DNA of 64,000 nucleotides from positions 84,975,447-85,039,446 of the forward strand of contig CM055265.1 of assembly GCA_029237695.1 (NCBI GenBank), given 5' to 3'. The translations under genes were made by a program, and so were the position numbers. Within the stretch, counting starts at the first letter, position 1; each line of letters opens with the position of its first letter. The notes under the pieces are model-generated. The model was not told where the DNA came from, did not search any database, and worked only from the letters and a program-made list of their open reading frames with translations. The stretch is from Conchocele bisecta. Taxonomy: Eukaryota > Mollusca > Bivalvia > Lucinida > Thyasiridae. Below, in pieces: positions 8,990-52,873 of the stretch.

Positions 8990-9085
8990 CTCGTTTGGAA
9001 AACGGTAACATTGAAATAGATAACATTGCCGCAGAACTACTGTCTGTTTCACGAAACCTGCCCAGATTTTACGGCTATGTTATGA

Positions 9086-9207
9086 AGTAGTAGTAAGGGA
9101 GTCAAAATGATACCACCTACGATGGTATCGTTTCCACCCCTCTACACTACCCCCACTACCCCCGAACAATCAAAAATTGGTTAACGAGGAAATTGTCCCC
9201 CACCACC
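9086..9207 (+). repeat. E2 left terminal inverted repeat
   Basis: It matches the right end (16,135-16,256) over about 122 bp with few mismatches. It contains AAAATTGGTTAACGAGGAAA, a block that is tandem in the E1 termini. Confidence 0.9.
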
Positions 9208-9286
9208 CACGAAAAATCCAAAATTGGTCGTGAAAAAAAACATAATGTTTTTCCGACAGCCAATTTATGAATTTTTGAGAAAATAA

Positions 9287-9703
9287 TTAATGCAATACCA
9301 ATTCACGATTGGATGTGCCCACGAGTGATAGTTTATATTCCAACACCCCATTTTTCTCCTCCAATATAGCTAATTTATTTCGCAGATCAGCAACTAATTC
9401 TACCAGCTCTAGTCTACAACGTTCACCTGTAGCCACCTGACAGCGTAGTTGCTTATGTCTACAAAGAGTTTGGGCACTAACGAATTTACAAGGGCATCTG
9501 GGGCATTGAAATTGCGGGGGGACACAAGGAATTTTTCTACGTCTCGCTAGATGCCTTCGTAGATAGTCTTTACGCGTAAACGTCTTACAACAAGTCTCAC
9601 ACTCCATTATATATGTATAGAAAGCGGATTTTTGGTCGAGGCTACCAAGATCTAGGCTACTTTTTTTAATTTTTTTCGATTTTTCTGAATTCTCGACTTC
9701 CAA
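9287..9703 (-). CDS. Zinc-finger / leucine-zipper-like protein of E2
   Basis: The 138-residue protein has two cysteine/histidine clusters: CETCCKTF..HLARRRKIPC at about 34-60 and CPRCPCKF..HKQLRC at about 67-88. A heptad-like leucine segment follows (LELVELVADLRNKLAILEEK, 98-117). This suggests a small DNA-binding dimer, perhaps an element regulator; no function is proven. It is transcribed toward the left TIR. From about residue 35 on it matches the E1 ORF at 39,108-39,407 almost exactly; the first 30 residues come from the palindrome arm, so the fusion point at about 9,617 lies inside this frame. Confidence 0.6.
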   Translation of the reverse strand: MEVENSEKSKKIKKSSLDLGSLDQKSAFYTYIMECETCCKTFTRKDYLRRHLARRRKIPCVPPQFQCPRCPCKFVSAQTLCRHKQLRCQVATGERCRLELVELVADLRNKLAILEEKNGVLEYKLSLVGTSNRELVLH

Positions 9704-12138
9704 AATTTATGTCAAATTTATTTTCTATTTTTTCCAAAATATTCTAGAGTAGCGAACGCCCAATTGAACATAAAAAAACGTAGTAGAATAGCAAAGCTAC
9801 TTCGCAAAAATGGCAGTACAAGCTACTTTCCAAAGCATGGGAATTCGGACGGAAAAAGCTGTTTCCGGACACATTCTACTGGAGAACGCGCACGACAGCA
9901 ATCTACTCCCGGACATCTCTGGAGTGGACTACCTACTGGGGCACGAGGGTCGGACACATTTGCAACCTCTTTTGGGGCTTCCACCCTTCGTCGACGACGT
10001 CTACATCTTCGGGTACCTTCGTCGCGAGGATTATGTGGCGAGAGGTGGGCGCATCTTCTGTACACGGATCTGCGAAGGAGGTGCTGCGTGCGGTTTCGAT
10101 GGCTGTTCGAAAAAGCATGAGTAGAACTAGAATTGGCACGTCCATCGCGCAGACCATTTCTACCGGGGACAATGCGGGCGGTACGATTCGAGCAACAATT
10201 CGTCGGATCGAGCGAGACACCGGGTACGACGCGCGGAAGAGATGGTCGGCGATCTACCCTTCCGCGGAGGTTGGTGGGTACTTCGTCGCCAAGGCCGCAG
10301 TCTCGGACATTCCGATGGACGAGTTGCAAGAGAACCTTCCAGCACTCGTACGCCAATTGCAAACTTTTGGGTACGGGATCTACTCCATCGACTACACGCA
10401 AGATTTCACCGGGGTACTAGATCGCGCGACTCTCGTTCGACACCTCTGCGACAACGAGGGATTTCGGGAGCAAGGGGAAATTGCGGATGCGATGCAGGAC
10501 CCCGACACACCAACCATTCTCGCCAACACTTCCACCGTCGGTAGGAACGTCTGCACTTGGATTCGCACCACCGACGACTACACCGTCCGCACCAAACTCT
10601 ACAACAAAGTTGTCTCGAATTTCGAAGCCGGCGAGATCCGGGAGCCGGTTGGTGGACATCTAGCAGCGTACGCGGATTGCCCCTTCGAACATCTACGAAA
10701 GACATTCCAACACCCCGACGTGCAAAGCCGCGGTTGCACTCGCATCGAGATCTCTCTCTACGCGTGCCGGGGAAAGAAGCTCTCGACATCGACAGCAAAG
10801 GAAGTTCTAGGCGATGCTCTGGACTTGGTCTCTCCGAAGGAAGGTCTCGTTGTCGTACAACCTCCAGCAAAACAATGGGAAAATCTGGCGAGTGTTCTAG
10901 ATCGGTGTCTAGTTCTAGCCGATCGTCCATCCGGTACGATCTTCGTGGCTTGGTACGCGCACACAGAAACCGGTAGAATCTCGGGGATTCGAGTTCGGCC
11001 AACCCCAGCTAGGGTAGAGCAAGATTCTGTTTGGGAGCGCGCTGTCTGCTGGGCAATGGCGGATTTTGGATTTCGTTCGTGTCCAATCTTCCGCGTGGAT
11101 GTGCTAGTCTCCGACCAGGACGGTGTGGAGATGGGTCCTCTGCGCTGCTACACGAAAGGGGAAGAAACACAAACCATTCTCTCCGCTAGCAAACATCCAA
11201 CGCAAACGCATCCAGATGCACCGGACCCCTCCATTCTGCTACCCTCGAACCGAGTAGTCTCTTGGGTTTGGCGAAGGGAGAAATGCAGCCCGATCGGGAG
11301 CGAGACCTCGAAGTACCAGATCCGCGAGATCCCGGAAATTGCGGAGGAGAGGGAGATTTCCACGCTTTCTACTAGAAATCGGGAAAGTCGCCTTCTAGAG
11401 ATTCGAGAAGCGGAGGAGGTGGAGCTCTGGAAACGCAATGCGTGGGAAAGAATCGAGAAAGAGAAGATGGAGAACGAGGGGAGAAGAGAGAAGGAAATTG
11501 CGAGACTCGCCGAGCTAGCGAATCTGCACCAGAAGCACGAAGAGAAATCCGCGCGCACTCTAGAGAAAGTGGTGGGAGCATTGGGAGGGCGCACCGGAAA
11601 AATCTCCGAAATCGAGAAAAAGAGCAAGCTCCTCGTTCTAGGGTACAGAAAAACTCCAAACAAGTCGACAGCGCGCAGAGTCGTTCTGCGGTACAAAGAT
11701 GGAGGGAGGGTGGAAACCGTCTGGGGGACCAAGGGGTTGGAGAAGTTGTTGGACGCGTGCAGAGTTCTTTCCAATTCGTTCCAGACAAGTACGGAAACAC
11801 GACGTACTGGATTCCTCCAGCATGCGGGGTTCTGCGTGGGCTCCAAATTCTAGTCGAACCAACTAGAGTCTTTTCGAACGGGGAGGGTGTAGAGATCGCG
11901 TGGAACCCAATTCGCGTACTTTCCACACCGGATCCGGAGAGGTTGGAACACATCCAGAAGATGGTGGACGACTTGGAGGAATGCTCCCAAAATACAGTAG
12001 TGGTGGGTTTGGTGCGAACGGAGGCCCCACAGCCAACTCTTTGTAGGAACATCTTGGAGATGGATCTGGAGAGTACATCGTACGTAGGTACGCAACTACC
12101 AACTACAGAGGGGCGAACCGAACGATCCTTTTTCTTCT
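9617..12138 (+). repeat. Left arm of the E2 palindrome
   Basis: This 2.52-kb stretch is repeated in inverted orientation at 13,264-15,803. The outer join is TATAGAAAGCGGATTTTTGG here against its complement at 15,784-15,803. The inner join is GATCCTTTTTCTTCT followed by CGAAAC here, but by GGGTTC in the other copy. Arms differ by scattered substitutions and small indels. Confidence 0.92.
9810..10124 (+). CDS. Arm ORF of 104 residues, unknown
   Basis: Begins MAVQATFQSMGIRTEK and contains LLPDISGVDYLLGHEGRTHL and PPFVDDVYIFGYL. I do not recognise it. It overlaps the start of the large ORF at 10,033 in another frame, so it may be either a separate small gene or the N-terminus of the larger protein separated by an indel. 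The two arms differ by several indels exactly here. The inverted copy has an early stop (TAA at 15,564-15,566). Codon use is GC-rich like the rest of the arm. Confidence 0.45.
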   Translation: MAVQATFQSMGIRTEKAVSGHILLENAHDSNLLPDISGVDYLLGHEGRTHLQPLLGLPPFVDDVYIFGYLRREDYVARGGRIFCTRICEGGAACGFDGCSKKHE

Positions 12139-12334
12139 CGAAACCAACGTAGATGGCGAACAAAAGACGGACATCGAGATTCCGGCGTACGGGTACTTCC
12201 TAGAACGCGAGATTGCAAATCTAGGAGGGGTGGAAATCCTCCAGAACAGAGCCAATCCAATCCGTTGCAGACTAGGAGGAAAACGTACTACCCCTACAAA
12301 GAAACCCGCGAGACTTGCCACTTTGGCTCTCTAG
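10033..12334 (+). CDS. Large arm protein, unrecognised; weak rolling-circle Rep resemblance; one frameshift
   Basis: An open frame of 606 codons runs to 11,853. Compared with the other arm, a single-base difference near 11,768 shifts the frame; the continuing frame stays open to a TAG at 12,332-12,334. N-terminal half: YSIDYTQDFTGVLDR at about 118-132, RTKLYNKVVSNFE at about 182-194 and GCTRIEISLYAC at about 227-238. The order acidic DYT, then LYNK, then RIE resembles initiators of the Rep_trans type, but this is a faint pattern match. A lysine/glutamate-rich coiled-coil stretch (about 440-520) follows, then a basic region. Start codon uncertain; any in-frame ATG from 10,033 is possible. Not seen in E1. 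Function unassigned. Confidence 0.5.
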
Positions 12335-12450
12335 AATCTGCAATTGTTGCAAAAAAAATTTAGAAAAAAAAGAAGAAGAAAACTCGCACACATTTTTTTC
12401 TCGCAACAATCTTGCACATTTTTCCCCAAGTTCGGAAGGAGTTGGAAAAT

Positions 12451-13013
12451 CTACTCCATGTAGAAAGGGTCGCGTTCTCCAGAGGGAATCTGTGTGGACT
12501 CGCTAGGAGTTTCTTTTTTTTCCTCAGGGTTTGCGGAGTGCACGAACTGGGAGTCGGAATCTGCATCCTTCCGGAGTCGATTGGTTTTTTGTACTAGTAG
12601 TTTGCAGATCGTGTACGACACCATCGCTGCACCCAGCCACCACTTCGCATTCTCTACATTTTTCCAGATGTCGTGCACCTCCCGCTCGTCTTTCTTCGAA
12701 CACTCGGAATCGACCGTGCTGGCATCGTCGGAAAGCGCGTCCAACAGTCTACGTTCCAGCGCGTCCAATCGTCTCTCCATGTCGGACAGGCGCGTCGATT
12801 TTTCGAACGAGCTGGCGTTTCGTACATCTTCGAGTAGATCCCGAGGGAACTCGGTGGGACCAAGCGCGGTCGCCCTTTGTACTACGGGGGTTTCTTCTTC
12901 TTCTTCGGGTTTTGTACTACGTTCCGCATCGACATCGTCCCAGATTTTTCGAAGTCTGACACTGCCGATTCCGTACTTCTTTTTTGTTTCGTCGGCCGTC
13001 GACTTTTCTATCT
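12451..13013 (-). CDS. Small membrane protein ending in RDPFYME
   Basis: The frame is open on the minus strand from just after a TAG (about 13,013) to 12,451, about 187 codons. The first ATG is only at 12,780 (109 residues), so the true start is unclear or lost. Features: KIWDDVD near the beginning, an EEEEE stretch, a coiled-coil-prone MERRLDALERRLLDAL, one membrane segment (WWLGAAMVSYTICKLLV) and a polar tail ending GERDPFYME. The last residues match the tail of the 134-residue membrane protein of E1 (44,455-44,859, ending RDPFYMQ), with the same order of helix, membrane segment and tail. Probably a virion-type membrane protein; inference. Confidence 0.55.
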
Positions 13014-15607
13014 AGAGAGGGGGACATTTGTCCAACATGGAATTCCCAAATCGTTCGAAATGGTCGAAATGCTTGCTCGGGGTGCTCGGGATGCTCGGAT
13101 TGCGCGCCAGATTGCTCGGATTGCGCGCCAGGAAATCCAGTCCGCTCGGGAAGGTCGAAATGCCTGCTCGCGATTCCCAGGGGGCTCGGGTTCTCCTTTT
13201 CTAGCCAACAAGGATAGCAAAAATAGAAATCCTGGGAAGCAAACTGGGTACCCAGAGAACCCAGAAGAAAAAGGATCGTTCGGTTCGCCCCTCTGTAGTT
13301 GGTAGTTGCGTACCTATGTACGATGTACTCTCCAGGATCCATCTCCAAGATGTTCCTACAAAGAGTTGGCTGTGGGGCCTCCGTTCGCACCAAACCCACC
13401 ACTACTGTATTTTGGGAGCATTCCTCTAAGTCGTCCACCATCTTCTGGATGTGTTCCAACCTCTCCGGATCCGGTGTGGAAAGTACGCGAATTGGGTTCC
13501 ACGCGATCTCTACACCCTCCCCATTCGAAAAGACTCTAGTTGGTTCGACTAGAATTTGGAGCCCACGCAGAACCCCGCATGCTGGAGGAATCCAGTACGT
13601 CGTGTTTCCGTACTTGTCTGGAACGAATTGGAAAGAACTCTCGCACGCGTCCAACAACTTCTCCAACCCCTTGGTCCCCCAGACGGTTTCCACCCTCCCT
13701 CCATCTTTGTACCGCAGAACGACTCTGCGCGCTGTCGACTTGTTTGGAGTTTTTCTGTACCCTAGAACGAGGAGCTTGCTCTTTTTCTCGATTTCGGAGA
13801 TTTTTCCGGTGCGCCCTCCCAATGCTCCCACCACTTCCTCTAGAGTGCGCGCGGATTTCTCTTCGTGCTTCTGGTGCAGATTCGCTAGCTCGGCGAGTCT
13901 CGCAATTTCCTTCTCTCTTCTCCCCTCGTTCTCCATCTTCTCTTTCTCGATTCTTTCCCACGCACTGCGTTTCCAGAGCTCCACCTCCTCCGCTTCTCGA
14001 ATCTCTAGAAGGCGACTTTCCAGATTTCTAGTAGAAAGCGTGGAAATCTCCCTCTCCTCCGCAATTTCCGGGATCTCGCGGATCTGGTACTTCGAGGTCT
14101 CGCTCCCGATCGGGCTGCATTTCTCCCTTCGCCAAACCCAAGAGACTACTCGGTTCGAGGGTAGCAGAATGGAGGGGTCCGGTGCATCTGGATGCGTTTG
14201 CGTTGGATGTTTGCTAGCGGAGAGAATGGTTTGTGTTTTTTTCTTCCCCTTTCGTGTAGCAGCGCAGAGGACCCATCTCCACACCGTCCTCGTCGGAGAC
14301 TAGCACATCCACGCGGAAAATTGGACACGAACGAAATCCAAAATCCGCCATTGCCCAGCAGACAGCGCACTCCCAAACAGAATCTTGCTCTACCCTAGCT
14401 GGGGTTGGCCGAACTCGAATCCCCGAGATTCTACCGGTTTCTGTGTGCGCGTACCAAGCCACGAAGATCGTACCGGATGGACGATCGGCTAGAACTAGAC
14501 ACCGATCTAGAACACTCGCCAGATTTTTCCCCATTGTCTTGCTGGAGGTTGTACGACAACGAGACCTTCCTTCGGAGAGACCAAGTCCAGAGCATCGACC
14601 TAGAACTTCCTTTGCTGTCGATGTCGAGAGCTTCTTTCCCCGGCACGCGTAGAGAGAGATCTCGATGCGAGTGCAACCGCGGCTTTGCACGTCGGGGTGT
14701 TGGAATGTCTTTCGTAGATGTTCGAAGGGGCAATCCGCGTACGCTGCTAGATGTCCACCAACCGGCTCCCGGATCTCGCCGGCTTCGAAATTCGAGACAA
14801 CTTTGTTGTAGAGTTTGGTGCGGACGGTGTAGTCGTCGGTGGTGCGAATCCAAGTGCAGACGTTCCTACCGAGGTGGAAGTGTTGGCGAGAATGGTTGGT
14901 GTGTCGGGGTCCTGCATCGCATCCGCAATTTCCCCTTGCTCCCGAAATCCCTCGTTGTCGCAGAGGTGTCGAACGAGAGTCGCGCGATCTAGTACCCCGG
15001 AGAAATCTTGCGTGTAGTCGATGGAGTAGATCCCGTACCCAAAAGTTTGCAATTGGCGTACGAGTGCTGGAAGGTTTCTCTTGCAACTCGTCCATCGGAA
15101 TGTCCGAGACTGCGGCCTTGGCGACGAAGTACCCACCAACCTCCGCGGAAGGGTAGATCGCCGACCATCTCTTCCGCGCGTCGTACCCGGTGTCTCGCTC
15201 GATCCGACGAATTGTTGCTCGAATCGTACCGCCCGCATTGTCCCGGTAGAAATGGTCTGCGCGATGGACGTGCCAATTCTAGTTCTACCCATGCTTTTTC
15301 GAACAGCCATCGAAACCGCACGCAGCACCTCCTTCGCAGATCCGTTTTCCCCAGATGTACAGAAGATGCGCCCACCTCTCGCACACAATCCTCGCGACGA
15401 GGTACCCGAAGATGTAGACGTCGTCGACGAAGGGTGGAAGCCCCAAAAGAGGTTGCAAATGTGTCCGACCCTCGTGCCCCAGTAGGTAGTCCACTCCAGA
15501 GATGTCCGGGAGTAGATTGCTGTCGTGCGCGTTCTCCAGTAGAATGTGTCCGGAAACAGCTTTTTACGTTCGAATTCCCATGCTTTGGAAAGTAGCTTGT
15601 ACTGCCA
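12917..15607 (-). pseudogene. Inverted copy of the arm genes, broken
   Basis: The right arm carries the same reading as the left arm on the minus strand, but split into several frames: 15,285-15,494, 14,747-15,388, 14,214-15,095 and 12,917-14,284. Breaks differ from those of the left arm: an early stop at 15,564-15,566, indels near 15,075, 14,870 and 14,600, and a frameshift near 14,235. The site where the left arm is shifted (near 11,768) is intact here. At the inner boundary (13,263) the frame runs on into loop sequence and into the upstream end of the membrane-protein gene, so its C-terminus differs from that of the left copy. Confidence 0.75.
13070..13195. repeat. Iteron-like GCTCGG repeats in the palindrome loop
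   Basis: GCTCGG occurs six times in about 120 bp, and the 18-mer GCTCGGATTGCGCGCCAG is perfectly repeated at 13,093 and 13,114 (21-bp spacing). Such clustered short direct repeats can be initiator-binding sites; here that is only a suggestion. Confidence 0.6.
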
Positions 15608-15803
15608 TTTTTGCGAAGTAGCTTTGCTATTCTACTACGTTTTTTTATGTTCAATTGGGCGTTCGCTACTCTAGAATATTTTGGAAAAAATATAAAATAA
15701 ATTTGACACAAATTTTGGAAGTCGAGAATTCAGAAAAATCGAAAAAAATTAAAAAAAGTAGCCTAGATCTTGGTAGCCTCGACCAAAAATCCACTTTCTA
15801 TAG
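13264..15803 (-). repeat. Right arm of the E2 palindrome
   Basis: The inverted partner of 9,617-12,138, about 2.54 kb. The length difference of about 18 bp reflects small indels. Confidence 0.92.
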
Positions 15804-16124
15804 ATCTTTTATTTGGTAATTGGTCACCTGTGTGTCTAATTTGAGACAAATTATTTTTGTGCTTGAAGGTAATTCTTTAGAATTAATTACACTAACCCTT
15901 AGCTCCGCAATACTTTCTTTTTGAATTCTGTTACCAACTTCCTCCGCTAGTGAGAGGTCTTTAAATGCCCCTCTTTTATAGGCGCGGGTAAACCGCTTCA
16001 TAAACGCCTCATTCTTTGTGGCATTTATCAGCTTTGTCAACCCCCTAACTCTCAACCGTGTACTATAAGTAATCCCTAGCGATTCGGCTTCTCTTCTCAA
16101 ACTTTCTATTTCTGGCGTTATCAT
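15798..16124 (-). pseudogene. Polymerase B start fragment of E2
   Basis: 108 residues, MITPEIESLRREAESLGITY onward. The first 80 or so match the start of the E1 polymerase (39,521) with about eight differences. After residue 80 the match stops and the frame ends within the arm boundary. None of the exonuclease or polymerase motifs are present, so it cannot polymerise. It begins right next to the TIR, without the zinc-finger gene that separates TIR and polymerase in E1, so a rearrangement joined TIR to the polymerase start. Confidence 0.85.
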
Positions 16125-16134
16125 ATTTTCTGGT

Positions 16135-16256
16135 GGTGGTGGGGGACAATTTCCTCGTTAACCAATTTTGGATTTTTCGGGGGTAGTGGGGGTAGTGTAG
16201 AGGGGTGGAAACGATACCATCGTAGGTGGTATCATTTTGACTCCCTTACTACTACT
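16135..16256 (-). repeat. E2 right terminal inverted repeat
   Basis: Inverse of 9,086-9,207. It ends ACTACTACT and is followed by TATGAA. Confidence 0.9.
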
Positions 16257-16485
16257 TATGAACTGGATTTTGGTCCGCCTCATACAGTAGCCAGCGGTGT
16301 AGGTCATTATGAGACTGCGCGGATGTGCAGGCTAATCTGGGTATGCACAGCTCGCAAAACAGTTGTGTTATTTAAGAGACAATCATTTAACAAAGATGTC
16401 AAATTTATAATTATTGGTCGATTTCGGTCAATATTCATATCAGAATGTTTGTTATTTTACATGGATTCTAACTATTGTATTTCTT
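16257..16485 (+). repeat. Direct repeat, copy 1 (flank of E2)
   Basis: About 229 bp starting TATGAACTGGATTTTGG, repeated at 18,009-18,229 with small indels. E2 is inserted at its left edge. Confidence 0.85.
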
Positions 16486-21793: not shown

Positions 21794-21826
<33 letters not shown>

Positions 21827-38907: not shown

Positions 38908-38912
38908 GGCTT

Positions 38913-39100
38913 AGTAGTATATAGGGAGTCAAAATGATACCACCTACTGTGATATCATTTACAACCCTCTATAATACCCCCACCACGCCCGAAAAATCAA
39001 AAATTGGTTAACGAGGAAATTGTCCCCCACCACCCCCGAAAAATCAAAAATTGGTTAACGAGGAAATTGTCTCCCGACAGCAAATTTATGAATTTTTGAG
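38913..39100 (+). repeat. E1 left terminal inverted repeat
   Basis: 188 bp, matching 52,687-52,873 with only a few differences. It includes two tandem copies of a block of about 47 bp, each with AAAATTGGTTAACGAGGAAA. GTTAAC is a palindrome and a plausible protein-binding core. Confidence 0.95.
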
Positions 39101-39107
39101 AAAATAA

Positions 39108-39407
39108 TTAATGCAATTTCAATGTGCCCACGAGTGATAGTTTATATTCCAACACACCATTTTTATCCTCCAATATAGCTAATTTATTTCGCAGATCAGC
39201 AACTAATTCTACCAGCTCTAGTCTACCACGTTCACCTTTAGTCACAGGGCAGCGTAATTGCTTATGTCTACAAAGAGTTTGGGCACTAACGAATTTACAA
39301 GGGCATCTGGGGCATTGAAATTGCGGGGGGACACAAGGAATTTTTCTACGTCTCGCTAGATGCCTTCGTAGATAGTCTTTACGCGTAAACGTCTTACAAG
39401 GTCTCAC
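39108..39407 (-). pseudogene. Zinc-finger / leucine-zipper-like protein of E1, N-terminus shifted
   Basis: About 99 residues with CPRCPCKF..HKQLRC and the heptad-like LELVELVADLRNKLAILEDK. Compared with the E2 copy, a two-base deletion near 39,403 breaks the frame in the first finger, so the upstream ATG (MDCETL) leads straight to a stop. Probably a DNA-binding regulator once; it reads toward the TIR, divergently from the polymerase. Confidence 0.65.
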
Positions 39408-39441
39408 AATCCATTATATATGTATATGTATATGTTTATAT

Positions 39442-39485
39442 TCAATTGGTCGTGAAAAAAACATAATGTTTTCACGACCAATTGA
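39442..39485. promoter_or_regulatory. Perfect hairpin between the zinc-finger and polymerase genes
   Basis: TCAATTGGTCGTGAAAA pairs with TTTTCACGACCAATTGA across a 10-base loop. It sits in the divergent intergenic space, so an operator or replication role is possible. E2 keeps only part of one arm (about 9,221-9,252). Confidence 0.65.
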
Positions 39486-39520
39486 ACAGATAAATTTCAT
39501 AGGTTATAACAATAGAAAAT

Positions 39521-42392
39521 ATGATAACGCCAGAAATCGAAAGTTTGAGAAGAGAAGCCGAATATCTAGGGATTACTTATAGTAAACGGTTGAGAGTTAG
39601 GGGGTTGACAAATCTGATAAACGCCACAAAGAATGAGGCGTTTATGAAGCGGTTTACCCGCGCCCACAAACGAGGAGCCTTTAAAGACCTCTCACTAGCA
39701 GAGGAAGTTGGTAACAGAATTCAAAAAGAAAGTATTGCGGGGTTAAGGGCTAGTGTAATAAAACCTTTAAGCACCAATAATTTGCCCCAAATTAGACACC
39801 CAATACCAAATAATAATAAAAGATCTATAGTTCGTGCGATAGTGGAAAAAACAGGTAACAGACCCGACAGATGTACGGACAAAGCGAGAGAATTTGGTAA
39901 GCAATATTTCGCTAGTAATGTGGTTTCACCAATTCCTTTTTCAGACCTGAAAAAGGTTGAAGAGTTTTTTAAAATCGGTATAGAAGTATATCAACCGACC
40001 GAATGTGACGTATGGTGGTTGAAAAAGGTACCAGCACACTACAAGGAAATAGGTAATAAACCAATGACAATAGGACTGTTTAATAAAAATTTACGCCTGC
40101 GATAATTGCAAACAGAAATTCAGGAAAGCGAGTAATATGAAGAGACACGGACCAAAATGTATGAAAGGTGAGACAAAAATAGTATGTGATGGTAATTATT
40201 TAGAGCGCCCGCGTTCGTCGTTCGAGAAAGCGTTTTACCCAAAAAGTTCTAACAGTTATGGGGCGATCGATTGGATGTATTCTGTGGAAAACCGGGAGGG
40301 AATTCACATTCACCACGAACAGTGCGGACACGGGGGTGAAAGAAAGATGGATTTTAGGAGCTCCAGTAGATGGATACTGCCAAGAAAACAATACCGTATA
40401 TCAATATCACGGCTGTTACTGGCACGGGTGCGAGATTCATGCAAAGCATAGAAAAAAAGAACGCCCATCCACTATGAGAAGAGATACATTTATTAGAAGA
40501 AGCAAAGAATTCAACCTAGTAGTTATGTGGGAATGCGAATTCCAAAGAACGGATAAAGATATAAAGATCGGTTGCGACACTACTCTTTATCCATATTAGT
40601 ATATGATTTTGAGGCGTATCTCAACCCAGAATTTAAAACTCTAGGTAATAGTTTAGAGTACGAAGCTGAGCACGTTCCGGTAAGTGTTAGTATATGAGAT
40701 AATTTCTCAAGAACAGTAACTCATATTTGTGATAAAGATCCTGCAAAACTTATAGAAAAATTCGTAGAAGATTTGAAAGTCAGGGGAAAAGCTATAAGAG
40801 AAGAAGTATGGTTGAGATATGGGTTTAATACAGAACATTTACATAAAAACCAAATCGCCAAGATCGAACAGTGGATAGAGCAAGTACCGGTTATAGGTTT
40901 TAACAGCAGTAAGCACGATATAAACTTAATAAAGAAATATTTAGTAGGCGAATTGGCATCAACAACAAAGAAAGTAATGGTCGGAAAACGGGCAAACGCA
41001 ACAATATTTCTATTTACTCCGGAGTTTAGATTCCTTGATGTAATACTTTACCTAGGACCGGGTGTAAGTTACGATAGTTGGATAAAAGCCTACGACTGCA
41101 AAGGACAGAAATCTTTCTTTCCTTACGAGTGGTTCGATTCTCCAGACAAACTTGATATCCCAGGACTGCCTGATATAGAGAATTGGTATTCCAAACTATC
41201 GGGGAAAATGTTACTAGATGAAACAGAATTAAGTAAATGTCGTAGTATTTTCGAAGAAAAGAATATGAAAACTTTCAGAGATTGGTTGAAATATTATAAC
41301 GATTTAGATGTAGCACCGTTCCTAGAATCGGTGGAAAAAATGTGTGAATTTTATAAACACAGAGATGTGGATATTTTCAAAGATGCGGTAACACTACCGG
41401 GTGTGGCTATACAATATTTATTGAGAGGAAGCATTAAAGAACAAAAATCTATAAAGGTGGTTATACCGGAGGGGGCTCTATATGCACAAAAAGAAGAAAC
41501 ATACGAAATGATGAATCGTGTTATAGATTATATTAGTGGTAAACCCTTCGAATGGTTCGCAAAAGAAGTTACAGCCGCAAGACGAACAGGCGATGTAGAA
41601 CCAAATAAGAAAACAGTAGCGAATATAATGAAATTATTAGGCAATTCGTGTTGTGGAAAAATGATAGAGGCAAAAGAGAGACATTTAAATACGACATATA
41701 CACAAGACGAAACCTGTGTTGACAAAGCGTTAAGATCTGCATTCTTTGATGATTTGGAAGAGATAGGAGATGCGTACGAAATATCTTCCCGAAAACCCCG
41801 GTGTGCAGTAAAGAGCCCCTTCCACTGTGGAATAGTGGTTTATCAACTAGCTAAATTGAGAATGTTGGAATTTTACTACGAATTTCTAGAAAAATACGTA
41901 AAAAGAGAAGACTTTGAATTAATACAGATGTACACGGATAGTATGTATATAGGAGTTAGTGGAAAAACGATAGAGGAATTGATTAGACCTAACTTACTAG
42001 ACGAGTTTGAAAAAGAAAAAAATAAATGGTTGGCTTGGGATAAATGGAGCGAAAGAGAGCCAGGACTTTTCAAAATGGAGTTCAGCGGAGATAGGGCGAT
42101 AGCGTTATCTAGTAAGTGTTATTTCGTAGAAAAATTTAATTCAATTAATAAAAACTATGCGAAAGGAATGTCCAAGAGAACTAACAATTTAAACTGGGAT
42201 AGATATAAACGAGTACTAAGTGAAACTACAGAAGATGGAAAACACATTATAGATGTAGCACAAAATAGAGGATTTAAAATGAAAGACAGCGTTATGAAAA
42301 CGTACTGTCAACAAAAAATAGGACTCTCGGCGTACTACGATAAAAGACGCGTGTTACCAGACGGAATACATACAGAACCTCTCTTGATTTAA
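39521..42392 (+). pseudogene. Protein-primed DNA polymerase B, broken and lacking motif A
   Basis: Replicates the element from its termini using a protein primer in Polintons. Read in three frames: 39,521-40,105, 40,110-40,451, 40,258-40,599, and then 40,602-42,392 with a TGA at 40,695-40,697. Visible: a cysteine/histidine cluster near 40,110-40,160, YQYHGCYWHGC (40,399), exonuclease motifs YDFEAY (40,602), IGFNSSKHD (about 40,895) and YYNDLD (about 41,300), motif B KTVANIMKLLGNSCCGKM (about 41,612) and motif C MYTDS (41,928-41,942). Between EETYEMMNR and VIDYISG (about 41,520) the segment that carries motif A (the DxxxLYP region) in the family is missing with the frame kept. Family normally about 1,000 residues or more. 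Confidence 0.93.
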
Positions 42393-43399
42393 GCAATCGG
42401 GGGCAGCTGGGTGTCAGAAGGTACCATAAGAAGTTCTTCGCGAACAAAACCGCGAGATGGACCATCAGCCAAATAATAGAGCACGGGCTCATCGGGTTTG
42501 GTAATAGAGCGATCCAGATGATATACATTCAGAGACCACACGGGATCAGTCGCGCGGCGGCTGCCACCTTCGAGCTCTCCCGGTTGATAGAGGTACCGGA
42601 CGTCAACATCCGATGGAAGTCGTTGCTCCTCTAAACCAACGGGTAGTCCGCGCGAGACGGTAGAGGGCTTGCTCGTCACCTTTTTAGACTTGATGACATT
42701 TACAGGCTTCTTACCTATCAATCTGGTCACCTCTCCGTTCAGTGTGGAGACCACGGCGGGCAGCCTGGCCACCCACTCGGTCGATCGCGAATGAGGGTCT
42801 ACAAGTTCTTTGGCATATTGGTGTCCGAACAGTCTCTCAGCCAGTGTTCGATTGAACCGCTCCACGATCCCCTGGTCCCGGTGGATGTTGACGCGGCCGC
42901 GTCTGATAGAAACTTTGTGCTTAGACAATAGATGAGAGACCGCGCCCATGAACTCGCGGCCGGGATCGACCTGGAGAAGATTCGGCCATTTGAGAGGACT
43001 CCTCTTATATATTCGGGAAAGAGCCTCGGCCACCTCCTTAGACTCTTTAGTGGCCAACGGCTCAGCCCCCTTATAACGACTCGCTACGTCAACGATTGTC
43101 AATGCGTACTTGTACGTTTTGCGACCGACGCGATCGTGAGGGAGAAACAGGAGATCCGCTTGGTGAACTTGGTTCGGCACCGGCACGTCGAATTTCGGGC
43201 GCGGAATATTGTGAGGCGCGGGTAAATAGATCTACCAGATGGCCTGCTTCTTGAGCCATTCCTTGACTGCGTTTTCTGAAACCTTGGTCGCCGCCGCGAG
43301 GTTCTTGATGGTCGTGAGTCCCTTCCAGTAGCCGCGTGGGCTATAGTATGTATTCGACAGCTTGCGCGTTAGTTTGGTATCAAGTTTGCGCGTGTTCAT
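42389..43399 (-). pseudogene. Retroviral-type integrase (DDE), one in-frame stop
   Basis: The enzyme that inserts the element into DNA. From ATG at 43,399 the frame is open for 55 codons (MNTRKLDTKL to KEWLKKQAIW), meets TAG at 43,232-43,234, then continues open to 42,389. Catalytic residues: D in QADLLFLP, D in LLQVDPGREF, E in QGIVERFNRT, with about 35 residues between the last two. The C-terminus has YLYQPGELEGGSR and YHLDRSITKP, as in Polinton integrases. Its stop overlaps the polymerase stop tail to tail at TTAA (42,389-42,392). Nearly intact except for that stop. Confidence 0.93.
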
Positions 43400-43712
43400 C
43401 GTATGCGAAGTATTCTAATATATCGGACAATCTCCAACATGCCCTCGCCAGTTCGTCCGGTAACTGCGTCGTTAATAATAAACCTTTGTTGGAAGTCCAA
43501 TCGCGATTGGTTTTGGAGGTTAAGTTCTGAAGGAACTCGGAGGAATCTAATTCATCGATTGGAGTTGAGGAGGATTCTAACAGCCGCTTTGCGAAAAGGG
43601 TGGCCGTTTTTTCATCCTCGCGCCACGTCTCGAGAGAATCTTGGGCCAGACGAATCATACTCTTTGCACCAGCTATACGATGTTTTTGGGCAGTGTAGCC
43701 TAAATCGATCAT
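43380..43712 (-). CDS. 110-residue protein, unknown
   Basis: Begins MIDLGYTAQKHRIAGAKSMI, alpha-helical in appearance, no membrane segment, no cysteines in a motif. It overlaps the integrase start by 20 bp, so the two are probably read from one transcript. I do not recognise the family. It has no histidine/cysteine pattern of an adenain protease. Confidence 0.6.
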   Translation of the reverse strand: MIDLGYTAQKHRIAGAKSMIRLAQDSLETWREDEKTATLFAKRLLESSSTPIDELDSSEFLQNLTSKTNRDWTSNKGLLLTTQLPDELARACWRLSDILEYFAYDEHAQT

Positions 43713-43780
43713 AGCGTAATAAAGTTCGTCAACAAACTCGTTCTATATATATATTTTTAAAAAAAATATTTTTTAAATAA

Positions 43781-44212
43781 TTAATTAATTTGTTCAATAT
43801 AGTAGCCGACGAGACCCACCACACCCATTCCCACGACGATGAACGCGATCTCGCGGTCTTTTTGGGCCTCTGACGGTACATAGAAATCTGAAAGTTGGGG
43901 CTCGGGATCCATTGGATCGAGACTTTTCTGCGGATATGCCAGCGCGTACTCGCGGTTGGCTTCTTCAACGTTCTGGAAAGTTTGCGTAGAGTGATTCTCA
44001 CGGCGAAGCTCTTCGTTGACCCAGTCCAGATGGGCGGTTCGTTTTTTCGACCACGCTTCCTTTGCACTATTGCGTTGTTCTACAGCTAAATCGTGACGCT
44101 TGCGCTCCTCATCCACGTTCGAGCTTCTCATTTTTGAGAATATAAAATTGCTACCGCTGAACGCCAATGCGTTTACAAGTGCACCACCTATCATTATTCC
44201 GATCGAAGCCAT
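43781..44212 (-). CDS. Two-membrane-segment virion-type protein of Polintons
   Basis: 143 residues. A hydrophobic N-terminus (ASIGIMIGGALVNALAFSG) and C-terminus (EIAFIVVGMGVVGLVGYYI) flank a charged helical middle (ERKRHDLAVEQRNSAKEAW) and a DPEPQLSDFY stretch. This architecture is recurrent in animal Polintons in my recollection; its role is not established, a membrane or capsid-associated protein being likely. It starts one base from the stop of the next gene (44,213), typical of a packed viral operon. Frame intact. Confidence 0.75.
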   Translation of the reverse strand: MASIGIMIGGALVNALAFSGSNFIFSKMRSSNVDEERKRHDLAVEQRNSAKEAWSKKRTAHLDWVNEELRRENHSTQTFQNVEEANREYALAYPQKSLDPMDPEPQLSDFYVPSEAQKDREIAFIVVGMGVVGLVGYYIEQIN

Positions 44213-44446
44213 TTATTTCCATATATTAGCAGGTAGAATTCCAACTTTAATTAGATAATATCGGGTCCAAACTGAGGCCGCTACATCTAAGGTCGCGAGC
44301 CCTGCGTCTCTCACAGTAAAGTCCAATTTGGGAGTGGACCCTCCTAGGGCCATCTTTGATAGTCGAGCATACCCGATACTGAAACCCGATATCACCACGG
44401 CGTGATAAAGCGCATTCACTATCATTTTACCATCTTGTTCAGCCAT
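44213..44446 (-). CDS. Small hydrophobic Polinton protein (77 residues)
   Basis: MAEQDGKMIVNALYHAVVIS at the start, with hydrophobic VISGFSIGYARL, then TLDVAASVWTRYYLIKVGIL at the end. Intact frame, directly abutting the 143-residue gene. Resembles the small conserved membrane proteins of Polintons; function unknown. Confidence 0.7.
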   Translation of the reverse strand: MAEQDGKMIVNALYHAVVISGFSIGYARLSKMALGGSTPKLDFTVRDAGLATLDVAASVWTRYYLIKVGILPANIWK

Positions 44447-44454
44447 TGTTATAA

Positions 44455-44859
44455 TTATTGCATATAAAATGGATCGCGATCAATGTTTAAATGGGGTGCA
44501 TCCAATCGTTTCGTAACTTTTTTAGGAACCGCCGTTGGAGTTGGGGTTCTGTTGTAGAGATGGTAAAGCACACTCAGGGTGACCACAACTGTCAGACCAC
44601 CACCAACAACCCACGGGGTCCAATCAGTTGGCGCAATCGGTTCCGGGGGTGTTGTTGCACTCGGAACCGATTGCTCTGTCTTCAGATGTTTTGCTGTCTC
44701 CGTCCCCAATCTCGATTGAAGTTTGGCCTCCCGAAGCTCGGCGAGTATTTTATCTTGTTTAACTTTTCGGGCGGCCAGCTGCCTGTCTTTTTGGGTTTTT
44801 ATGTCGTGCAACCCCCAACTCCAATTCCAACGGCGGTTGGTATTGGGTTGTAGGATCAA
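44455..44859 (-). CDS. Membrane protein ending in RDPFYMQ
   Basis: 134 residues: a helical, charged first half (LAARKVKQDKILAELREAKL), a proline/threonine-rich linker, one membrane segment (WVVGGGLTVVVTLSVLYHLY at about 83-102) and a tail ending NIDRDPFYMQ. The same tail closes the loop protein of E2 (12,451). The frame overlaps another at 44,759-45,031 whose last residues are similar in composition, so a frameshift may separate the true N-terminus. Likely virion membrane component; inference. Confidence 0.65.
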   Translation of the reverse strand: MILQPNTNRRWNWSWGLHDIKTQKDRQLAARKVKQDKILAELREAKLQSRLGTETAKHLKTEQSVPSATTPPEPIAPTDWTPWVVGGGLTVVVTLSVLYHLYNRTPTPTAVPKKVTKRLDAPHLNIDRDPFYMQ

Positions 44860-45031
44860 TCGGATTCAACAGTGTTGATGGAAGTGCTTTATCACACCGT
44901 GGTGATATCGGGTTAGAAATTGGAGTTGGAGCAATCCCCAACTCCAATCGCGATTGGGTTGGAGGTGCAATCGGGTTCAACAGTGTTGAGGGCTGTTCCG
45001 TCACTCTCGCGGGTGTGTCTTGTGTCATCAT
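44759..45031 (-). pseudogene. Proline-rich repeat segment, possible N-terminus of the neighbouring gene
   Basis: 90 residues with two copies of PSTLLNPI followed by PTQSRLELG or a similar phrase. At DNA level it holds TCAACAGTGTTGA (44,866 and 44,977) and CCAATCGCGATTGG (44,944). It overlaps both the 134-residue and the 188-residue frames, so it is either a separate disordered protein or a shifted part of one of them. Confidence 0.4.
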
Positions 45032-45583
45032 TTATAATATTAGAGCTTATAGTTCGTGGGCATATATGTCCAAATTGACAGTGTTTACTCGTGGTCAACG
45101 CGGTTGTCAGTGGAGCTAAGTACATTCCAAACTTGTGATAAATTGAGCAGCAGGCTGTTCTAAGAGTGTGTCCTATTAAAGGGTCAGTCTCTAGATCGTG
45201 AATCAACCCCTCGGTGTTTGGTATAGGGAGAAGTATATTAACGGCGGTAGCGTGCAAATGAATAGCCGCCGATCCAAGAGTTTTTGTCATCTCTGCCCCC
45301 AATTTGGATTCGTATCGCGCATACATTTTATCAATCTCCGCATCTGACATCTTATCCACCTGACAAACTGAGAGACGCCTACCGAGATAATGCTCCGATT
45401 GTCCCCCAGCAACCAGCGCAGCTAGCCGCTCGCGTCGCGCCGCATTTTCATTCGTATCGGCCCCAATCGCGATTGTCAACCCGATTGCTCTGTCGGAGTA
45501 GATGTTTCATTATCTTTCAGGATATCGGTAGTGGGAGTTGAGGTTTCTTCCATTAGTTGATCGAGAGGTTCGTCGCAGTTCAT
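44913..45583 (-). pseudogene. Conserved Polinton protein with YARYESKLGAEMTK, N-terminus shifted
   Basis: The main frame (45,479 down) contains RERLAALVAGGQSEHYLGRR, SDAEIDKMYARYESKLGAEM and GMYLAPLTTALTTSKHCQFG. This helical protein recurs among animal Polintons in my recollection; its role is unknown to me. The likely ATG at 45,583 (MNCDEPLDQLMEE) is in another frame that ends at about 45,480, so one base has been gained or lost near the CAATCGCGATTG palindrome (45,464). The end beyond CQFGH may also be off-frame. Confidence 0.6.
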
Positions 45584-45599
45584 TATTGCTAATTTTCTT

Positions 45600-45867
45600 A
45601 AAATTAATTTAATTATTCAAACAAGTCTCATCACTTTAACATATTGCCAAGCGCACCACCCGATACTTATGATCACCGTTATGCTCGCAACAAAGCTCGC
45701 AGCGGAGCACCAAATTGTTAACATTGTTAACCATTGTTCAGCATTTGTTCAACATTTGCTAAGCATTTCTTCAGCATTGTTCAGCAATTGCTAATTAATA
45801 ATTTTGAAAAAATTATAAAATTAATTGTTAAGCATTTACTCAGCAGTTACTAATTTTTTCAAAATTA
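45600..45867. promoter_or_regulatory. Intergenic region with TTCAGCA/TTGTTCA repeats
   Basis: At 45,716-45,860 short A/T-rich variants of GTTAACATTGTTAACC, TTCAGCATTTGTTCAAC and AAGCATTTCTTCAGC repeat, then TAATAATTTTGAAAA is mirrored by TTTTTCAAAATTATTA (45,796 and 45,851). It lies between two minus-strand genes and may hold a promoter or terminator; not proven. Confidence 0.45.
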
Positions 45868-46520
45868 TTAATTGATAACTTTATAAGCAGTTGGTTGATT
45901 AGTCTTTAGCAGAAGCTTGGCGTGCTTAGTTTCGGAAAGCATCTGTCGAACCTCCAGCCGCTCCTCGCGCGTTGGGATAACGTCATTCTCATGAGTCATG
46001 AGTCTCGGTCCTTGCAGTGAAAGAGGGCGACCCATTTCGTTTGCTCGCGCAGATCCTTGAGGACGGCGTTGTATTTTTGAGTGGAGATCCATACGCTTTG
46101 CCTCGCTTGGCAGCCAGAAAATGCGAGCTCGGAGAGCATGTCCTTCTTTTTGGTCATCGCCGCCTTGGCCGAGCAATCGTCAATCACATATAGGGTGGGC
46201 TCACCCTGGAATCTTTGGTATAAACCACGCAACCAATCGTGAAGCCTATCACCGGGGTCAATAACGTATACCTCAGGGTCGGTCCATATCCACGGGCGCC
46301 GCTGATAAGTATCGTTGTGCCGCACAGTGGGACATAGGATCACAATGTGACGAAAGGCATCGCGGTAGGACCCCTCGAGTAAGTCGAGGATGAAAACCGT
46401 TCTTCCATATCATGTCTGCCCACATATTATGGCAGAGTGGGCATCTCCAATCGTGAATTGGTATTGATTGCTAGATGATTTTTGTATTAAATCAGTAGAT
46501 CGCTGATACGTATCGGCCAT
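45868..46520 (-). pseudogene. Packaging ATPase (FtsK/HerA, A32-like), broken
   Basis: Motor that packs viral DNA into capsids. The frame starts at 46,520 (MADTYQRSTDLI). Walker B is TLYVIDDCSA and the following sensor is SVWISTQ. The Walker A region reads CGQT, then TGA (46,410-46,412), then YGRTVFILDLLEG: a stop sits in the loop and the catalytic lysine is an arginine. A second frameshift near 46,010 separates HCKDRDS from the terminal REERLEVRQML segment. Non-functional copy. Confidence 0.85.
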
Positions 46521-46567
46521 CTTCGATGTTCAGTTGTGCGTCTGTAGTTATATATAAGTACACGTTG

Positions 46568-46824
46568 AATGCGCCAGCTCCGTCCGCCTCTTTGGTTATC
46601 TGGATCGTCACACCCTCGCTAGCGTTCTCAACTTGACGTTGAAATTAGCTGGAAAGGCGGCTGCCGCACTACCTGGACTGATCGGAAGTATCGTTTCTTA
46701 CTTGTTATCTATATTATCAAAAACGGTCGGATGGCTCACCAATAATACTTGGGCTTTAATCGTGGCAATCGCCGGTCTCCTACTATTCTCCGCCAGAGAG
46801 TTCCTAAAACCAAAGCGCGAGTAG
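46568..46824 (+). pseudogene. Small hydrophobic virion-type protein, frameshifted
   Basis: The last 63 codons (LKLAGKAAAALPGLIGSIVS, TWALIVAIAGLLLFS, end REFLKPKRE) form an amphipathic/hydrophobic protein like the small core or membrane-lytic proteins of Polintons. There is no ATG in this frame. Upstream, another frame (LNAPAPSASLVIWIVTPSLA) stops at about 46,635, so the gene is split by a one-base shift. It is divergent from the ATPase and convergent with the capsid gene. Confidence 0.55.
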
Positions 46825-48254
46825 TCCGACCACTACGAGGGCGACGACGAGCCCTAATTTCTCCTCCTCGTGTGTTGTGCTTCCAATTTCAACATTGTTG
46901 ATGATTGGATTGGGGGAACTCGATGGTGCATCCAAATTGCGAATTGGGGGTACTGGGTTCAACGGAGGTGTATCCATTTTGTGTTTTATTCCACTTACAA
47001 CCTCAACACTGTTGAACCCGACCGTCTTGGGGTTCAATCGGGGATTGATTTTGATGATACCCGTGTTCACGTTTCCGTTGCGGCCGATTTTTTGATTGGT
47101 GGTTGCGACTACGATCTGATTATTGTAACCGTCAACCGGGTCGTCTCGTAGTATCATATTGCTCGGCGCCATATAAAGACCTATTCCAAATGCGTAGTCT
47201 ACCGGGGTGCGAGCAGTCTGCAAAACGTCTTGATAATTCTGGATCGCCTTCTGGAGGTCCACCTTAGCTGAGATGGCATCCTCGACAAGTGCCAAGAACT
47301 CTGTTTTTGTGCGTCAAAGGCCGTTCCCGTACCCAGTATAGCGCTGCGCGTTTGCTTCTGTGAGGCGAGTATTGCCCATACGTATATGCGAATGGAGTCG
47401 TTGAGGCGAATAACCCCGCCCTGTGTAAATCCAGTGCTTTTATCTAACATAAATGTGGTCCACGCATTTCGCATCTGTGGAGTATCACCCAGGTCTAGGT
47501 ATTCCACGTGGGCTACTTTAGTAGGTAGCCAATGACAATAACCGTCTTTACACGCAAGCCCCCCAAGCACTTCATCACCGAACGTCATCGTATTCAACTT
47601 ATAATTATATTTAGTCCATGTTGCCATTTTTCTAACTGGTGGTGGGGTAGCTCCGCGAACACTCCACAACCCTGAGAAATATGCGGGTACTTTATCAAGA
47701 TGCCCACCACTAACTAAGCCTTTAAGGTGAACTAACCCTAAACTGTTTTTTGGAGTATATACTTTCTGTCTCCAGTCCGCGTCTTTTGGTACCCCAAATT
47801 CGTTACACAATCTTTCGAACGCCTTACGGTCGTATGTGCTGGAAATGGGATCCCAGCCGTCGTCTTGAGGTAGTGGAATACCTAGTTCTTTGAGAATCCT
47901 CCTAATGGTGTAATACACGTGAAAGTTGTAGACACTTCGGAGCATGACATTCTTGGATGTCAGATGGTCTTGATGCGAAATTCCACATCCGGCCGTTGCA
48001 CACCATGCAGCGAAATTTAGCTGGTTCTGCCAGAAGTTCATATGGGAAAAATCCCATCTTAGTATTACATCTTGACTAGTAGTCTTTGGAACTACATATT
48101 TCTCAAACGTGTTAGGGAAATTGGTGGTAAAGCCACTTTTCGGTCTAACTGTTACAGTTGGGTGTACAAGGTGGTCAACAACGTCTTTTTGTGTGTATTT
48201 ACCTCCGACCGCGTACTTTGCATTAGAGTTAAATCTAAATGCTTTGGTATCCAT
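46804..48254 (-). pseudogene. Large virion protein, major capsid candidate, one frameshift
   Basis: Two frames: 48,254-47,199 (MDTKAFRFNSNAKYAVGGKY) and 47,295-46,804. They overlap where one base is off, near 47,300 (FDAQKQ). Combined length about 480-510 codons. Notable phrases: NFAAWCATAGCGISHQDHL, AWTTFMLDKSTGFTQGGVIR, then YAFGIGLYMAPSNMILRDD and a hydrophobic end LGLVVALVVVGLLALWF. Its size and position opposite the penton-like gene suggest the major capsid protein or another large virion protein; the double jelly-roll fold cannot be verified by eye. Confidence 0.55.
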
Positions 48255-48270
48255 TGAAAGATATTATTAT

Positions 48271-49020
48271 ATGTTTGCTACTATCACTAATGTTCAAAAA
48301 GAGAGTTGTGAACTTCAAAAGTCAATCGACAACTGCTGCGGAAAACGCCGGGTGGGCCTCAGATCAATCACCTTCACGGTCGGGTGGCAGCATGTGGGAA
48401 AGAGTGAAGGGTTTTACTATGTGAAGGATAAACAACAATTAGGTGTAAAGCTGCCTCACGGACTGTGGGGAATAAGACAGCTCAAAGATTTTGTCACCTC
48501 AGAGCTTGACGGTATAGTCAACCTCACAGTATCGAAGGCTACCGGGCTCGCAACAATGACCATCAGCCCTGATAATAAGGTAGTGGTCTCCCCGGGGTTG
48601 GGTATTCAACTCTGTTTTACAGAGACATACTCCGTAAATAAAGGAGTGTTTACCTCGGGTGAGTACGTCGGTGATAACCCGGTGGACTTCGCCTTCACGA
48701 AAACTCTCAGGGTGCACCTGGATCGGGTGAACACGTCGTACAACACGGTAGACGGATCCCCCAACACATTACTGAAAACCGTGCAAGCCAGCGACTGTTT
48801 CTTTGGGGATACGGTGACCTTAGACTTCCCACACCCCGAGATGAAAGTTTTGGAAACGGGACACATCCACGAATTTACGGTCTCTATTCTCGATGATCAA
48901 GCGAGAAAGTTGAATAACTATTACCCGATTTTCGGTAGTTCTCGAAATTTCCAATTGAGTATAGTGCCCCAATATTATAATTTTAATTTATTTTATTATG
49001 AGTATATACGGACCAGGTAG
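48271..49020 (+). CDS. Penton-like minor capsid protein candidate
   Basis: 249 residues from ATG at 48,271, intact. Beta-rich alternation throughout (GLRSITFTVGWQHVG, GIVNLTVSKATGLATMTISP, DTVTLDFPHPEMKV) and SILDDQARKLNNYYPIF near the end, consistent with a single jelly-roll capsid vertex protein. It is divergent from the large virion protein, with 16 bp between their starts, and overlaps the fibre start at its 3' end. The fold is inferred. Confidence 0.6.
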   Translation: MFATITNVQKESCELQKSIDNCCGKRRVGLRSITFTVGWQHVGKSEGFYYVKDKQQLGVKLPHGLWGIRQLKDFVTSELDGIVNLTVSKATGLATMTISPDNKVVVSPGLGIQLCFTETYSVNKGVFTSGEYVGDNPVDFAFTKTLRVHLDRVNTSYNTVDGSPNTLLKTVQASDCFFGDTVTLDFPHPEMKVLETGHIHEFTVSILDDQARKLNNYYPIFGSSRNFQLSIVPQYYNFNLFYYEYIRTR

Positions 49021-50725: not shown

Positions 50726-50746
50726 AATACTAATATATTGAAAATC

Positions 50747-51385
50747 ATGAACGAATCACCGTATCCAATTCTCAATACCGCTCCATCAACACTGTATCCA
50801 ATTGTCAATACCACTCCATCAACACTGTATCCAATTAACGAAAGAAGTTCAGATTTTAGGTTGAATAATATCGTCGCTATGCAGGATATTTTAGTTAGAG
50901 AATGTGCAAATAGAAAAAGACACGCCAAAAAATATAGGCGCGCGGTGAACATAGCTGAAGCATCTAGCACGGCTCTGGCGAGTGTTTCTGTGTTGTGTGG
51001 GGCGGGGACAGCTGCAACTATATCCACCATTATAACAATTCCTGTAGCGGGGGTTTTAAGTGCGGTTGCGGCCGTTTCTGGGTTGTTGTGTATGGCGGGT
51101 GGAAAACTCGAGAAAAAAAGTAGAAAACATGATAGAATATCCGTTCTCGCTAGGTCTAAGAAAAATAGCATCGACGTTATGGTGTCCAAAGCGTTGGCCG
51201 ATAAGAAAATATCAATTTTAGAGTTTGAATCCGTGGTGGAAGAAATGGGGAGATATGAAGAATTAAAAAATGATATTAGAATCAAAGCGCGCGCCACCAT
51301 GCCCAAAATTGAGTGTACTGATTGGGATAAATTTAGGGTAAAACTTGGAAATAAAGTCGGAGGAAATGTTACAGCACCATTGTGA
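50747..51385 (+). CDS. Hydrophobic hairpin protein of Polintons
   Basis: 212 residues from ATG at 50,747 (MNESPYPILNTAPSTLYPI). A disordered repeated N-terminus (PSTLYPI twice), a basic helix (NRKRHAKKYRRAV), a glycine/alanine-rich double hydrophobic stretch (ATISTIITIPVAGVLSAV to GLLCMAGGK) and a helical C-terminus (KALADKKISILEFESVVEEM). Recurrent in animal Polintons in my recollection, function unknown; a membrane-inserting virion protein is plausible. Intact. The preceding TTG at 50,738 is in frame but ATG is preferred. Confidence 0.65.
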   Translation: MNESPYPILNTAPSTLYPIVNTTPSTLYPINERSSDFRLNNIVAMQDILVRECANRKRHAKKYRRAVNIAEASSTALASVSVLCGAGTAATISTIITIPVAGVLSAVAAVSGLLCMAGGKLEKKSRKHDRISVLARSKKNSIDVMVSKALADKKISILEFESVVEEMGRYEELKNDIRIKARATMPKIECTDWDKFRVKLGNKVGGNVTAPL

Positions 51386-52630: not shown

Positions 52631-52686
52631 TTTCTCTAATAATTGGTATTGTTTTTTCTGTCCAATATAATTTTGACTCCCTCTTT

Positions 52687-52873
52687 TCAAAAATTCATAA
52701 ATTTACTGTCGGGAGATAATTTCCTCGTTAACCAATTTTTTATTTTTCGGGGGTGGTGGGGGACAATTTCCTCGTTAACCAATTTTTTATTTTTCGGGCG
52801 CGGTGGGGGTATTATAGAGGGTTGTAAATGATATCACAGTAGGTGGTATCATTTTGACTCCCTATATACTACT
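52687..52873 (-). repeat. E1 right terminal inverted repeat
   Basis: Inverse of 38,913-39,100 with the two tandem GTTAACGAGGAAA blocks. It is followed by GGCTTAGCTAAACAATACGC, matching the left flank duplication. Confidence 0.95.

Follow-up and report, generated by a model that had tools for sequence, protein, structure and literature searches.

Rolling-hairpin replicons of the parvoviruses and bidnaviruses have terminal hairpins and replicate through dimer intermediates, joined tail-to-tail and a few kb in size. Foldback transposons such as FB and Galileo carry very long inverted arms around a loop, and transpovirons and virophages, which are small and end in terminal repeats, depend on a larger virus. 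According to the title of a 1992 paper by Vierula and Bertrand, cited in PMC11071308, a deletion derivative of the linear plasmid kalilo forms hairpins. Here we analyse E2, a mirror-image element with near-exact inverted ends at positions 9086-16256 of a 64-kb stretch of Conchocele bisecta DNA (the window). E2 joins Polinton (Maverick)-type termini to a palindromic core, and we favour, with a probability of roughly 0.58, the reading that E2 and its relatives are Polinton-dependent satellites that replicate via a self-complementary form with a Rep_trans-like initiator. In agreement with the preliminary description of the window, no described element of this layout was found in the literature searched, and the core family looks undescribed.

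A palindromic core between Polinton-type ends

Self-comparison of the window aligned two inverted arms (9613-12138 and 15805-13263) at 98.27% identity over 2547 columns around a 1.1-kb loop (12139-13262), as first described. The arms differ by 19 substitutions, 13 of them transitions, and 11 indels. The terminal inverted repeats (TIRs; 9085-9207 and 16257-16135) are 98.4% identical over 123 bp. They had been called exact and are near-exact; the 5-bp target duplication reported with them, TATGA, is present. E2 has the long inverted arms, loop and target duplication by which foldback transposons are recognised. Each arm holds a gene for a protein of ~870 amino acids (aa), the two copies lying tail-to-tail, and E2 is a worn, degraded copy of its palindromic family. 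The GC content of the core is 52%, compared with 43% for E1, a Polinton-like element in the same window, and 41% for the E2 end pieces. The GC-richness ascribed to the core genes applies to E2 and not to the family at large, since the core of a second element, E3, has 44%.

The left end piece of E2 (9088-9619) matches E1 38912-39426 at 89% and the right piece (15798-16131) matches E1 39830-39514, inverted, at 87%. The outer segments had been matched to the zinc-finger and polymerase-start sides of E1; both matches lie at the E1 left end, indicating that a single terminus of an E1-like Polinton, the left one, supplied both pieces. The zinc-finger reading frame itself continues into the core. 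E2 9086-9620 served as query against the 1196 contigs (1.89 Gb) of the host genome. The best 40 of 2986 candidates were the window itself and 39 further near-full-length copies, 96-99% identical to the left piece; one extra match covered 36 bases. Loci of 10 kb were fetched for 20 of the 39 matching ends. Nineteen are ordinary Polinton left ends, with the zinc-finger gene, ~95 bp and then a putative polymerase gene; two of the nineteen, L023 and L029, belong to one copy-back element. The remaining locus, L040, holds another palindromic element. The right piece is 93-99% identical to fetched Polinton ends, and both pieces are closer to another Polinton subfamily than to E1.

The DNA match between E2 and E1 is confined to these end pieces, that is, to the zinc-finger gene and ~110 codons of the putative polymerase start; the core arms, as already noted in the preliminary description, have no E1 counterpart at the DNA level. 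No PolB, rve integrase, ATPase or capsid Pfam domain was found in the seven E2 open reading frames (ORFs), and no integrase or polymerase was recognised in the E2 ORFs, in ORF2 of the loop or in the arm-protein relatives. Because the polymerase of E1 is likewise missed by Pfam, the absence of these genes from E2 rests on the DNA comparison with E1. E1 and its kin are putative Polintons, labelled from their TIRs (96.8% over 190 bp in E1), gene order, motifs and a near-threshold rve match: the E1 integrase candidate scores 32.5 bits, just below the 32.6 cut-off (E 1.1e-7), and an ORF of another locus (L032) scores 29 bits. Pfam names neither the polymerase nor the capsid candidates of E1 and its kin, and a 623-aa ORF of the polymerase region had no credible match in PDB or phage searches. 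E2 carries Polinton-type TIRs with a short target duplication, and its family shares termini with fuller Polintons resident in the same genome. Polinton-type ends do sit on genes that have no E1 counterpart in DNA, as first described. The helper dependence first proposed is also supported as probable: the palindromic elements probably depend on Polintons to move.

The core as a separate multi-copy family

The host genome was searched twice at the protein level. One search covered the best 72 of 1581 candidates, with 78 matches at 54 loci; the other covered the best 75 of 1597, with 77 matches at 62 loci. Merged, they gave at least 96 distinct core loci. A single gene copy is present at 68 of these, a convergent pair at 27 and a mixed tandem at one, and none is divergent, so that 27 of the 28 two-copy loci are convergent. 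The mixed tandem (C12:45490178-45494718, flank L053) has an E3-type and then an E2-type arm gene, and to a small degree it weighs against the satellite reading. A same-strand pair at C17:49.2 Mb consists of two fragments of one copy. L040 was scored as single in the first search and is nevertheless palindromic; limited scoring of candidates accounts for the single-copy loci only in part. The cores diverge down to ~48% protein identity with the convergent layout retained, the 27 convergent loci differ in size, and some members have open frames across the searched region while others have stops. The search for further copies that had been advised thus showed that palindromes recur; this recurrence and the arm alignment put the layout beyond chance. 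The palindromic core is a diverged multi-copy family of its own, which keeps its layout at other sites with other Polinton-type ends, and the earlier derivation of the palindrome from a folded-back Polinton is not supported.

Three further units were read across both termini. E3 lies in L040, with its right end in L041. It shares the Polinton left end of E2 up to about the start of the zinc-finger gene and continues with a palindromic stretch (1545-9963); the Polinton right end that follows matches E1 from position 50311 onwards. Its centre, judged by eye, is an unpaired loop of ~56 nt, its outer arms differ at 8 of 2100 aligned bases and its arm protein is ~48% identical to that of E2; its target duplication, AATCC, adds slightly to the satellite reading and, set against the C12 tandem, left its odds as they were. 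One E3 arm also holds a ~1-kb insertion with 26-bp inverted ends (L040 6865-7862), possibly a small DNA transposon. E4 (L042) has a core ~97.8% identical to that of E2 without the E2-type ends, a terminal-repeat hairpin at both sides and the duplication GCCAG. Read by eye, it interrupts a putative packaging-ATPase gene of another Polinton (L042 1-1325 and 7137-8601). Elsewhere in L042, an integrase-like region outside E4 occurs as two inverted copies, 98% identical over 816 bp, and 82 bp of the E4 core edge are directly duplicated (1418-1577). The third unit, on C17, has identical 211-bp outer ends and the duplication CCTTT, and its outer flanks match none of the reference elements. Its terminus forms a predicted 106-nt hairpin of -42 kcal/mol (z -17), which 0 of 200 shuffled sequences equalled. 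Terminal hairpins, a feature of parvoviruses and bidnaviruses, are present in related copies; the 106-nt hairpin does not occur at the E2 ends. All four units with both termini read (E2, E3, E4 and C17) are bounded by Polinton-type termini and 5-bp target duplications.

Another 11 loci, picked among matches starting near the protein start, provided 14 outer flanks. Nine have a terminus of the AGTAGTA...GAGTCA(T/A/C)AATGAT type, shortened in L052. Among the five without it, L049 and L053 have core pieces in front of them, L057 has a stretch resembling a Polinton right end and L048 has repeated ORF2-like pieces; L044 is unexplained. The E2-type core edges are constant within the lineage while the outer sequence differs. 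Native Polintons carry TATA or TATAG at the positions where the E2 core is joined (six copies viewed, four on the polymerase side). The left junction of E2 was spanned by one of 40 scored matches (best 40 of 2144 candidates), namely the window itself, and the other 39 end at query positions 318-320, corresponding to 9617-9619. With the junction spanned by the window alone, we rejected E2 as a multi-copy unit; it appears to be a private chimera, drawn from two mobile families, that nonetheless integrated as a single unit. The preliminary description had offered a defective Polinton or a chimera with another DNA virus; E2 does not look like a Polinton folded on itself.

Arm protein, ORF2 and the possible origins

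The arm protein, which belongs to no Pfam family, has relatives in marine invertebrates, with homologues in Elysia and other genomes. A TBP-like saddle is predicted, with modest fold scores, for its N-terminal domain. By our own assignment, its near-invariant residues follow the order D...D...T.(S)VG...KxYxK...RxE, as in Rep_trans endonucleases, for which PMC4797284 lists a catalytic Tyr, a nearby Lys and three metal-binding acidic residues; the candidate positions in the arm protein are Y276, K278 and the acidic D62/63, D206/210 and E325. The arm protein may thus resemble a bacterial DNA-nicking enzyme. Two results weigh against this proposal. PF02486 (Rep_trans) had no match in the whole host genome, its positive control in Bacillus subtilis being detected, and TBP ranks above Rep_trans in the structure comparison. 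Other searches gave little. No NS1 helicase or capsid Pfam match occurred in the E2 ORFs or 34 A1 arm-protein relatives (25 of 26 families listed), and no relative was confirmed in IMG/VR, GTDB contigs or phages. Three of 592 matches to viral fold models reached E <= 0.001, with low TM-scores and to unnamed or uncharacterised proteins. A PDB sequence search gave two weak matches, that to TBP (E 0.096) falling on the long-helix region 514-596 and not on the saddle, and the best PHROGs match, phrog_29300 (a family of unknown function), involved 3 of 34 members with a best E of 0.0025. Xanthomonas phage Cf1c was dropped as a Rep_trans comparison, its replication ORF looking HUH-like by its motif.

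The palindromic units carry ORF2 close to their centre. ORF2 of E2 has one likely membrane span (by eye) and ends in RDPFYME, as does that of E4. One E3 copy has an open frame of 233 codons; by eye it shows a helix-turn-helix-like region and a likely membrane span, and its tail is GDPFYME. An ORF2 search found one metagenomic relative (P0121), with the tail RDSFYME. RDPFYMQ stands before the stop of a gene in E1 and in 10 of the 19 Polinton-end loci; an eleventh locus (L022) has RDPFYMQ without the stop, and the remaining eight show none, in some cases owing to rearrangement of the fetched stretch. A tail common to otherwise dissimilar proteins suggests that ORF2 and the Polinton gene share a partner, for example a component of the virion or of a membrane.

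From this anatomy we infer a mechanism. The 870-aa protein would act as a Rep_trans-like endonuclease, nicking DNA close to the edge of the core or to the terminal hairpin, and replication would pass through a single strand or closed hairpin, making the tail-to-tail self-complementary form a regular product. Polinton termini would be acquired by recombination at short homologies (TATA/TATAG) and would allow insertion by a Polinton-type integrase, and the ORF2 tail may attach the satellite to the particle of its helper. E2 itself would be a core joined to a Polinton left end and to a polymerase-start/terminus fragment, probably before integration as one unit. More tentatively, and at somewhat less than even odds, animals may carry a class of such rolling-hairpin satellites, with an initiator from a eukaryotic branch of the Rep_trans/TBP fold and captured Polinton termini that serve packaging as well as integration.

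The best-surviving alternative, which we nonetheless consider unlikely, is that the palindromes are defective genomes made by copy-back in the protein-primed replication of Polintons, the 870-aa protein being a TBP-fold passenger or regulator without nuclease activity. The ranking of TBP, the Polinton type of most termini read and a real case of copy-back all favour it. That case (L023/L029; C1:28825524-28836079, ~10.55 kb) has two left ends, a loop of 676 bp between arms that are 99% identical, and CTATT as its target duplication; no foreign genes were seen in it. Polinton copy-back is real in this genome, yet it does not explain the E2 core, for which we rejected it: a foreign core is convergent across lineages at ~48% protein identity and with different ends, constant core edges are not expected from repeated independent copy-back, and near-invariant residues in Rep_trans order would be needless in a pure DNA binder. 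Another Polinton copy (L027 5169-8343, match orientation) has an internal inverted repeat of ~0.92 kb with 100% identical arms.

Less probable still is an autonomous foldback-type DNA transposon, its 870-aa protein being an unknown transposase that acts on the core edges and that jumped into Polinton ends. Constant core edges (TATAGAAAG...) beside variable outer sequence would fit, as would the long inverted arms, which recall Foldback elements, and a DDE_Tnp_4 match (9.5e-4) in one of 34 A1 members. That match is limited to the one member, a simple insertion should have left the Polinton middle that E2 lacks, and the four fully read units have Polinton-type termini with 5-bp duplications. An assembly or read artefact (a hairpin read or chimeric contig), to which the near-identity of the arms might point, is rejected as very unlikely from the assembled sequence, given the substitutions and indels between the arms, their different outer sequences inside a single target duplication and the 27 convergent loci of different sizes.

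Table 1. Features of E2 and E1 in the window.
Feature	Position	Strand
Target duplication TATGA, left copy	9081..9085	
Left TIR, AGTAGTAGTAAGGGAGTCAAAATGAT..., identity drops past ~122 bp	9086..9218	+
Polinton left-end fragment (terminal repeat and C2H2 zinc-finger gene)	9086..9619	
Zinc-finger ORF, frame extends into core; zf-C2H2 25.4 bits (cut-off 25.2)	9287..9703	-
Palindromic core, both edges TATAGAAAG(C/T)GGATTTTTGG	9616..15802	
E2 left arm	9613..12138	+
Left copy of ~870-aa arm gene, split across several frames	9810..12313	+
E2 loop: arm-gene 3' end, ORF2, spacer	12139..13262	
ORF2, 109 aa from first ATG, frame open further upstream; tail RDPFYME	12451..12780	-
E2 right arm	13263..15805	-
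Right copy of arm gene, codons 1 to ~803, frame changes and stops	13262..15608	-
Polinton fragment: putative polymerase gene start joined directly to terminal repeat	15798..16131	-
Right TIR	16124..16256	-
Target duplication TATGA, right copy	16257..16261	
E1, Polinton-like, target duplication GGCTT, kind proposed as helper	38913..52873	
E1 134-aa gene, one likely membrane span (by eye), tail RDPFYMQ	44455..44859	-

Extended tandem arrays also occur in the window at 6170-7535, 19153-21800, 49246-50225 and 58540-59878, the third within an E1 gene of fibre-like, coiled-coil appearance.

Comparison with known systems

If the satellite reading is correct, it adds a satellite layer to animal Polintons and provides a natural self-complementary genome architecture. 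It would also extend to eukaryotes a replication-endonuclease fold so far described from bacteria and (2026) archaea; PMC13107129 describes Rep_trans as apparently confined to bacteria until its own archaeal report. Whether animal Polintons form particles and serve as helpers would also become testable, since a satellite that depends on them and has a protein tail in common with them would support both indirectly.

E2 resembles Polintons/Mavericks in its AGTAGTA...TACTACT terminal repeats and 5-bp duplication, as in E1, with ends that are 87-99% identical. It differs in a core with no DNA match to E1 and no recognised integrase, polymerase or capsid, which instead holds two mirror-order copies of an unrelated gene. 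With the Rep_trans initiators (RepDE, RepSTK1 and the archaeal Rep-Arvir) the arm protein shares a predicted curved TBP-like domain and the residue order; unlike them, it is missed by PF02486, occurs in animal genomes and has 870 aa with a long helix and a further C-terminal part. The terminal hairpins of related copies and a tail-to-tail form of a few kb recall parvoviruses and bidnaviruses, but no NS1 or capsid is recognised, the palindromic form itself is integrated and the termini are of Polinton type. In contrast to FB and Galileo, each arm in the E2 family encodes a conserved protein and the termini are again those of Polintons. Transpovirons and virophages differ from the E2 family in its animal host, palindromic layout and other genes. 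Finally, the kalilo hairpin is a derivative of one plasmid, whereas E2 belongs to a multi-copy family with genes of its own.

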